From Microscillaceae bacterium (GTDB lineage: Bacteria > Bacteroidota > Bacteroidia > Cytophagales > Microscillaceae), in contig JAABSX010000012.1 in assembly GCA_011390205.1 (NCBI GenBank), positions 1-64,000 on the forward strand: 64,000 bases of DNA. The letters run 5' to 3'. Position 1 is the stretch's first letter; every line of letters starts with the position of its first letter. Shown one piece after another: positions 62,000-63,449 of the stretch. The notes under the pieces are model-generated. The model was not told where the DNA came from, ran no database searches, and was given only the letters and a program-made list of their open reading frames with translations. The position numbers were made by a program, and so were the translations under genes.

Positions 62000-62138
62000 A
62001 TTTTTTTTGAGAGATTTAAGATGTTTTGACAAAAATCTGTGTGTTTACTAGGTAGATTTGAAGCAGTAAAGGTTATCTAAGTAGAGAAAAACAACTATTT
62101 GGCTTCATTGTGGGGCATTTTATAAAGGATTGACAGAT

Positions 62139-63449
62139 TTGAAAAATATCATTCGTTTTGAATACGGTGCGCCTGTGGAGCTTCCTTTACAGGCCGCAGA
62201 GCTAGATGAGCTGAAAGAATACTTACAAAGCATGTGGCGAAATCGCCGTTTTTTGCAAGATTTTGAAGTGCCTGATGCTGAAAATCCTCCTTTTTTTCAT
62301 TGGGAGGGGGCAGCATTCTTTCCTAGAAATTATGTGGGTTTTATTAAATTTAAGGATTGGATTATAGAGATTTATCCCAAAATATTCTCTGCCCAGCCAC
62401 TCGCACCTACTAAAATGCTGCATCATTTGCTTTATTATTTGAGCTATGCAGCCCCTCAGCACTATGCTTGGCAAAGCCAAGAAGGGACACAAGACAAGAC
62501 TCCATGTGCTTGGGGTTTTTATCAAAAAATGATATTGGCACAAATAAAAACGTACCTCACAAGGCATCTTTACCAATCGTATGAAAAACAAACCGATTTA
62601 CTGCCTTATCTGCGGGGCAAAATAGCATTTGAGTCTTATTTTAAGGATGTGTTGTCGAGTGCCAAGTGGCATCAAACGCCCTCTACATTTGAAAAAATCC
62701 AAATCAATAATCCACTCAACCAACTGCTCAAATATGTGCTCAGGCAGTGGCAAAGTGAGGATACATCATTTCAAGGCATTATTTTGGATTTACTTTCTTT
62801 TTTGAGCGAGGTAGAGGAGGTATATTTTACATTCCGAGAGGCTCAAGGCATTTCCCTGCCTGCAGCTGCAAGAGAAGCCCATCAAATATTAGATTTTTGT
62901 CTTTATTTTTTAGAAAATCAGGCAGCAAGTCTGGGCAAGCAGTCTTTCCAAAATTTTGTGTGGCTACTGCCCATGGAGCGGATTTATGAGCAGTTTGTGG
63001 TGGGTTTTATCAAGGAGCACTTCCCTGAGGCACTGCTCGTTTTGCAAAAATCTACTTATTTGGCCACTACTAAAAAGGATGAAAAACCTGTATTCAGGAT
63101 ACAGCCCGATATATATCTGCCACAGCAGCATAAAATCATAGATACCAAATACAAGCTCAGAAACGGCACACAGCACCAAGCAAACGGGGGCATAAGCTCG
63201 GGAGATATGTATCAGATTTTGAGCTATGCCCTAGGCAGGCAGTGCCAAGATATGTTGCTTTTATATCCAGCACGGCACGGAGCCGAAGCTACAGAAGTGC
63301 AAGATTTTGAGGTGAAAGAAGGGGTTTTGGCACACAAGCCCATCTCTGTCAGGGCTTTGGATATGAGGATAAGCACAGAGGCAGTGCAAGACTGGCGGTC
63401 TGAGCTAGACAAATTGCTCATCTCACAATTTCGGGAGTTTGTTTTTTAA
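62139..63449 (+). CDS. McrC-type 5-methylcytosine restriction subunit, no McrB nearby
   Basis: 436 residues from a TTG at 62139, chosen because an AAAGGA ribosome-binding-like sequence at 62124-62129 is well spaced from it; another TTG lies three codons upstream. The N-terminal McrBC domain is followed by a PD-(D/E)xK nuclease: Pro-Asp near residue 323 (IQPDIYL), Asp-Thr-Lys 11 residues on (IIDTKYK), and the Gln of SGDMYQILSYA. All core residues are intact, so cleavage should be possible. In McrBC, McrC is driven by the AAA+ GTPase McrB; no such gene exists in the flanks. It converges on the small gene at 63446, sharing a TTAA. Confidence 0.85.
   Translation: MKNIIRFEYGAPVELPLQAAELDELKEYLQSMWRNRRFLQDFEVPDAENPPFFHWEGAAFFPRNYVGFIKFKDWIIEIYPKIFSAQPLAPTKMLHHLLYYLSYAAPQHYAWQSQEGTQDKTPCAWGFYQKMILAQIKTYLTRHLYQSYEKQTDLLPYLRGKIAFESYFKDVLSSAKWHQTPSTFEKIQINNPLNQLLKYVLRQWQSEDTSFQGIILDLLSFLSEVEEVYFTFREAQGISLPAAAREAHQILDFCLYFLENQAASLGKQSFQNFVWLLPMERIYEQFVVGFIKEHFPEALLVLQKSTYLATTKKDEKPVFRIQPDIYLPQQHKIIDTKYKLRNGTQHQANGGISSGDMYQILSYALGRQCQDMLLLYPARHGAEATEVQDFEVKEGVLAHKPISVRALDMRISTEAVQDWRSELDKLLISQFREFVF

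Follow-up and report, generated by a model that had tools for sequence, protein, structure and literature searches.

How does an McrC nuclease subunit work when no gene for its motor, McrB, lies beside it? In Escherichia coli, mcrB and mcrC stand side by side. The window analysed here, a stretch of 64,000 nucleotides from a Microscillaceae bacterium, carries an mcrC among genes of other kinds, and a sequence-only reading described it as solitary, leaving three options: that McrC uses another motor, that mcrB is unlinked or that the protein does a different job. As described in PMC7680126 and PMC6624300, the finger of McrC plugs the McrB hexamer, a basic residue that McrC inserts at the active site stimulates GTP hydrolysis, and McrC bridges the two half-complexes. 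The analysis favours the second option: comparison of sequences across the order indicates that the window's McrC very probably works with a distant McrB, encoded on another contig of the same genome, as a split McrBC complex.

The mcrC gene of the window

The gene and the codons discussed below, with residues numbered in the 439-residue form, are as follows.

62130..63449, + strand: mcrC, encoding a PF10117 protein; a single open frame of 439 amino acids from TTG 62130
62862..62864, + strand: Ala245 codon, at the position of Arg263 (T. gammatolerans) and Lys157 (E. coli); profile position 244
62988..62990, + strand: Glu287 codon, invariant in the 13-protein alignment and in 73 of 73 McrC proteins
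63108..63110, + strand: Asp327 codon, the D of 'PD', invariant in the 13-protein alignment and in 73 of 73 McrC proteins
63141..63149, + strand: Asp338-Thr339-Lys340 codons (DxK); Asp and Lys invariant in the 13, Lys in 73 of 73 and Asp in 72 of 73
63213..63215, + strand: Gln362 codon, invariant in the 13-protein alignment and in 73 of 73 McrC proteins

An alternative start at TTG 62139 gives 436 residues, and the match to the clade profile begins at that position. The protein matches the Pfam family PF10117 (McrBC) with an E-value of 7.5e-46 and 157 bits over profile positions 4-318 of 318, exceeding the curated cut-off of 23.9. The PD-(D/E)xK catalytic residues are all present in the window's McrC, and the single exception in the alignments of 13 and 73 McrC proteins, one of the 73, has Glu at the position of Asp338. 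The window gene is a real, intact McrC of the ordinary type, and the earlier observation that it keeps the PD...DxK and Gln motif is borne out by Glu287, Asp327, Asp338, Lys340 and Gln362.

An AlphaFold model of the protein (pLDDT 79.8, pTM 0.76) superposes on Thermococcus gammatolerans McrC (6ut7_G) over residues 5-439, with 393 residues aligned, an rmsd of 4.7 and a Z score of 27.2; Foldseek gives an E-value of 3.5e-17 for the same comparison. By this comparison, the window's McrC is predicted to consist of a scaffold, a finger and a PD-(D/E)xK nuclease. Since the alignment extends over 5-439, the N-terminal scaffold that is missing in E. coli McrC is present here. E. coli McrC, as described in PMC7680126, lacks that scaffold and has Lys157 at the stimulating position, while the window's McrC has the scaffold and Ala245.

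The surroundings are as the sequence-only reading described them. On one side lies murF, on the opposite strand and with three Mur ligase domains; the 90-residue protein has no match in Pfam or NCBIfam; and the gene read as a phosphatase encodes a 7TMR-DISM/SpoIIE protein. At 0.421, the G+C content of mcrC differs little from the 0.406 of the whole window and so gives no sign of recent import.

An McrB on another contig

The genome of the window (G000; 4.5 Mb, 124 contigs) contains only one PF10117 match. AAA_5 matches number 51 at E up to 1; 20 of these loci were inspected, and a P-loop and an MNTAD motif occur together in one of the 20:

G000:C76:15373-16638 (= L022:9874-11142): mcrB, encoding an AAA+ protein of 422 amino acids with GPPGTGKT, DEINR, MNTAD and RRR

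Walker A, Walker B, NxxD and the paired arginines are all intact in this protein, and the residue after Walker A is a Tyr, one of the residues able to stack on the base. A search of the genome with the C76 McrB as query found no second McrB. The gene lies between a divergent secA on one side and a SpoIIE-domain gene on the other; the neighbourhoods examined contain no mcrC near this mcrB and no mcrB near the window's mcrC. Both genes stand in the middle of their contigs, with other genes on both sides, so their separation is not a contig break. The claim that McrB is missing therefore holds for the neighbourhood of mcrC and fails for the genome, where a search for an MNTAD-type McrB returns a single protein whose phylogeny matches that of McrC; this is one of the outcomes that the sequence-only reading had named as refuting its view.

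SpoIIE-domain genes are found beside both mcrC and mcrB in this genome (L023:8761-10914, L022:11115-13373 and L022:13580-15448, all on the minus strand), and the mcrC of G012 and G003 (L040 and L041) adjoins a gene of the same cluster as the SpoIIE neighbour in G000. SpoIIE matches number 45 in G000 and 151 in G012, which makes chance adjacency quite possible, and the case for a functional link between SpoIIE and McrBC is weak.

The P-loop of the C76 McrB begins at residue 32, leaving 31 residues ahead of it, and the open frame extends at most 9 codons upstream of the start used; the protein thus has no N-terminal reader. Both subunits score far under the cut-offs of their NCBIfam models, with 81.9 bits against 338 for PRK09736 (McrC) and 111.7 bits against 637 for PRK11331 (McrB). 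No PADLOC model matches the window's McrC, and the C76 McrB gives partial AAA matches only (the best to the REase_II model, E 1.7e-10, residues 249-341), so the system may well escape a PADLOC scan.

McrC might instead act alone or with another AAA+ motor, the C76 McrB being unrelated to it. No motor gene adjoins mcrC, and the 51 AAA_5 matches would offer many other candidates, yet MNTAD and a P-loop coincide in just one of the inspected loci, and the model includes the parts, scaffold and finger, with which T. gammatolerans McrC contacts the McrB ring. This explanation, which is improbable, also has against it that McrC and the unlinked McrB co-occur and have parallel trees, as described below; with an unlinked MNTAD-type McrB in the genome, another motor is not needed.

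Linked and split genes among relatives

The window protein as a single query found no relative in genome contigs, while an alignment of eight relatives did. In a search of 57 genomes, a close McrC (E below 1e-45) and a close McrB (E below 1e-97) turned up in the same eight and in no others, and in all eight the two genes lie at different places. G018, assembled as one contig, has mcrC at 8.25 Mb and mcrB at 4.55 Mb, 3.7 Mb apart. A wider sample of 390 genomes, drawn evenly from the larger groups of the order, contains McrC of the window's clade (at least 270 bits) at 29 places or more, 16 of them linked and 13 split. At the linked loci mcrB lies directly upstream of mcrC on the same strand. 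Among the split genomes, five belong to the window's family (f1), seven to family f5 and one to family f22; in G066 the two genes are 28 kb apart on opposite strands. Relatives of this McrC are therefore solitary in part: the eight closest genomes are all split, but the 16 remoter clade members are linked.

Scans for the missing neighbour agree with this division. MNTAD occurs within 1.5 kb of mcrC at 16 of 16 linked loci versus none of the 12 split loci scanned (G004 was left out; its locus L039 shows no McrB-cluster gene. For G003, locus L092 covers only about 250 bases upstream of mcrC). Conversely, an McrC frame lies within 1.5 kb of mcrB at 14 of 14 linked loci versus 0 of 14 split loci, a control that covers 14 of the 16 linked genomes (G126 and G213 left out) and includes G117 on the split side. 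In G117 mcrB ends at the contig end with nothing downstream, and a fragment of mcrC lies at the edge of another contig.

Across the class, a search of 335 genomes found at least seven besides the window's with such an McrC at E up to 1e-40. MNTAD lies within 1.5 kb of mcrC in six of these seven; in the seventh, G449, both genes are at contig edges. In Rhodocytophaga aerolata, too, mcrC stands without an McrB motif in the roughly 6 kb to each side. In the order- and class-wide searches at most 3 to 5 first-look candidates were scored per genome, so that further copies are possible, and many of the order's mcrC loci that score under 120 bits were not sorted individually into linked and split.

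Several further arrangements came to light. In G002 (genus g3; L049:7653-8894 and L091:2461-4602) and G065 (genus g50; C33:7858-8910 and C67:29514-30650), additional mcrC and mcrB genes lie apart and may represent extra split lineages. At G584:C180:5923-8283 (L239, L243) the McrB and McrC matches overlap slightly and both report one frame of 800 amino acids, a possible mcrB-mcrC fusion and so the reverse of a split. Internal stops suspected in the G066 McrB and the G105 McrC were rejected: the extracted frames (570 and 423 amino acids) are full length, and the stops seem to fall where the match ends.

A second split lineage is found in family f11. McrB of the f11 type reaches at least 520 bits in at least 37 of the 390 genomes, and all 37 also have an f11-type McrC (82-147 bits). 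By coordinates, the two genes are directly adjacent in none of the 37; distances range from about 4 kb on the same strand in G384, through 16 kb in G307 and 18 kb in G121, to megabases in G042 and G334. No McrC frame lies within 1.5 kb of mcrB at any of the 30 f11 loci scanned. The f11 and window McrCs occupy different parts of the McrC tree, so the separation seems to have arisen at least twice.

At 28 of the 37 f11 loci, mcrC has beside or near it a gene from a single sequence cluster, whose tested member is a GntP permease; the conserved synteny is possibly incidental. Genes read as lpd, rimP, nusA and infB lie near mcrC at six other loci. Beside f11 mcrB lies either a VWA_CoxE gene or a gene identified by eye as dehydrogenase-like, and these neighbours are conserved within genera. 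For G384, frame picking chose a longer frame on the opposite strand over the true McrB frame. In six f11 genomes (L164-L166, L178, L186, L187) the solitary mcrB is followed immediately downstream by a VWA_CoxE-like gene, a kind of gene more familiar as a neighbour of MoxR-type AAA+ proteins.

Fragmented assemblies could in principle separate genes that are truly neighbours, and both the 124 contigs of the window's genome and the contig-edge genes of G117 fit such an artefact. This explanation is nevertheless refuted for the window's genome and for G018, and four f11 genomes (G042, G271, G313 and G381) carry both genes on one contig, 0.8 to 3.7 Mb apart; as an account of the split it is practically untenable.

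Although apart, the two genes tend to occur together. Among 374 genomes of the order-wide sample, the 16 linked ones being left out, 14 have both proteins, none has McrC alone, 2 have McrB alone and 358 have neither (Fisher p 1.3e-23, a value that ignores kinship); the 14 include G117, and separation can be judged in 13 of them. A kinship-aware count on a SecA tree of 29 genomes, out of 30 of which one gave no SecA match, shows five changes of presence, 4 of them independent on well-supported branches. McrB goes with McrC in 3.7 of these 4 independent pairs on average and never in the opposite direction (sign test p 0.125), four changes being too few for significance; without the f11 genomes it follows McrC in 2.6 of 3 changes on average.

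The trees of the two subunits also run in parallel. For the correlation between McrB and McrC tree distances, r is 0.922 among the 13 split pairs, 0.861 among 14 linked ones and 0.840 among 31 of the second lineage, and in each case 0 of 2000 shuffles is as high. The window's genome and G009 are sisters in the McrB, McrC and SecA trees (SecA support 100/100); their join in the McrB tree unites long branches and drew a program warning, but it recurs in the SecA tree. Within f5, the McrB and McrC trees show the same small groups. In the McrB tree, f1, f5 and two degenerate rows group together to the exclusion of G105 of f22 (support 92); the McrC tree does not unite the f1 rows in a single clade, and several of them sit on long branches. 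Such parallel trees are evidence that the pair shares its descent, not that the proteins bind, as plain vertical inheritance also gives them.

Selection was estimated on relatives of the window genes: dN/dS is 0.08-0.16 for McrC in 10 pairs (two of the window's clade, eight of the second lineage) and 0.05-0.11 for McrB in 8 pairs (two and six, respectively). Such low values indicate purifying selection, that is, both genes are maintained in the species compared.

The two genomes with McrB alone, G002 and G011, belong to one genus, and in neither was an McrC of the window type found (G011 is 82% complete). Their McrB genes, L089:4732-5919 and L090:1965-3137, both on the minus strand, are degenerate, with DEMQS or DEMQR, WNTSD, an altered arginine pair and a long branch. 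The partner appears to be missing and the motor to have decayed here, and the two genomes of one genus count as one event.

A probable split complex and its possible role

The closest solved structure of both subunits comes from one and the same system, which counts in favour of pairing: the best solved sequence match is T. gammatolerans McrBC (PDB 6UT3-6UT8), with E 4e-13 for McrC (6ut5_G) and 1.7e-70 for McrB (6ut3_A). Unlike that system, the window's has unlinked genes; Walker A has its Lys at residue 221 in T. gammatolerans McrB while the P-loop lies at residue 32 in the C76 protein, and McrC has Ala in place of Arg263. E. coli McrBC likewise shares the PD-(D/E)xK nuclease and the McrB motifs (6hz4_M, E 1.2e-9 for McrC; 6hz4_A, E 1.3e-49 for McrB), but its McrB has an N-terminal modified-cytosine reader, described in PMC12707154, that the C76 protein lacks. 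Counted against pairing are Ala245 in McrC and an McrB without an N-terminal reader, as in McrBS. Measured against Type IV McrBC, the genome does contain an McrB, while adjacency of mcrB and mcrC, an N-terminal reader and a basic McrC residue are absent.

The first of these points concerns the residue that stimulates GTP hydrolysis, identified in PMC7680126 as Arg263 in T. gammatolerans McrC and Lys157 in E. coli McrC. Ala245 stands at this position, an assignment that depends on the alignment. A basic residue is absent there in all five window-type McrCs of the window's family and in 14 of 16 linked relatives, while Arg occupies it in 29 of the 37 second-lineage McrCs. Loss of the stimulating residue was therefore rejected as a mark of the split, and Ala245 is no such mark.

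The second point concerns the reader. The P-loop is preceded by 29-39 residues in McrBs of the window's family, by 161-517 in 14 linked clade members and by 175-188 in f5; McrB of the window's family is thus without an N-terminal DNA reader domain. E. coli McrBS, as described in PMC12707154, is likewise an AAA+ domain without the N-terminal DNA-binding domain; when overproduced it withdraws McrC from the active complex and suppresses restriction. McrBS, however, is a second product of the full-length gene, whereas in the window's genome no McrB other than the short form was found.

The stretch between Walker A and Walker B spans 214 residues in the C76 McrB and about 90 in f11. As a mark of the split it was rejected, its length being 197-233 in 14 linked members and 210-218 in the split clade. 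PMC11090510 proposes insertions into McrB GTPase domains as likely specificity domains. The CoCoNuT systems treated there (Bell et al. 2024) are McrBC relatives that carry such insertions too; they differ in having NxD and a long coiled-coil part in McrB, where the C76 McrB has NxxD (MNTAD) and only 31 residues before the P-loop.

In the split complex proposed here, the window gene would supply the nuclease subunit and contig C76 the partner, as the only McrB found in the genome. The McrB hexamer would hydrolyse GTP, and McrC would plug its ring by the finger domain, dimerise and cut DNA by the PD-(D/E)xK domain; once both proteins are expressed, gene position need not matter for assembly, and unlinked genes could still make one complex. 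The genes may have come apart in ancestors of the window's family and a related one, and since then have been kept together or lost together. Because McrB of the window's family has no N-terminal reader, the choice of DNA would have to come from elsewhere: from the Walker A-Walker B stretch, from McrC or from another protein. The candidate reader left in the C76 McrB would be that long stretch, common to the linked relatives. Complex formation, GTP use, DNA cleavage and a role against foreign DNA are what we infer for the pair, whose genes themselves are intact, lie apart and co-occur with parallel trees, with purifying selection in the related pairs tested.

The same two proteins might still form a pair that has left restriction for a cellular role, such as processing of the cell's own DNA, with vertical inheritance outside defence islands and loss of the reader. 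The genes closest to the pair serve housekeeping or signalling (murF, secA, SpoIIE-domain genes), the McrB of the window's family is without its reader, purifying selection acts in the relatives tested, and the second-lineage neighbourhoods (the GntP cluster gene; the dehydrogenase-like or VWA_CoxE gene) are conserved within genera. There is also a precedent in Staphylococcus, where PMC10602043 describes an McrB converted to cell division, PcdA. Against this, of the family's 15 genomes 8 lack both genes of this type and 2 others have just a degenerate McrB, and such patchy presence implies that McrB and McrC of this type are not essential there; moreover, the catalytic motifs of both subunits are intact, unlike those of PcdA, and no positive sign of a cellular substrate was found. 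A departure from restriction is thus possible but doubtful.

PcdA of Staphylococcus aureus resembles the C76 protein in being an McrB-family protein without a linked McrC (PMC10602043), but its motifs are degraded, while the window's genome has an intact McrB and an McrC. The degenerate McrB of G002 and G011 is closer to PcdA in this respect and is possibly, by analogy, a coopted McrB of the same kind.

A broader speculation, and an unlikely one, is that the split has become stable and is inherited vertically in two or more Cytophagales lineages, with the reader lost in the window's family, and that the pair has become a domesticated GTP-driven nuclease, directed at a cellular DNA structure or recruited by another protein, rather than an agent of classical modification-dependent restriction.

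What is new at this locus, if the split complex is taken as the preferred reading, is the combination of unlinked genes and an McrB without an N-terminal reader; the McrC itself is ordinary. No report of conserved split McrB/McrC pairs was found in listings of the open-access literature. As its methods are given in PMC11090510, the 2024 McrBC census paired mcrB and mcrC within neighbourhoods of ten genes on each side and added orphans by manual annotation only. Pairing by gene neighbourhood could miss split pairs, so that the census may undercount stable ones or list them as single subunits presumed useless. Split pairs also offer a natural experiment: one genus has a decayed McrB and yielded no matching McrC, and the window's family has an McrB that lacks its N-terminal reader yet keeps an intact ring and an intact nuclease partner.
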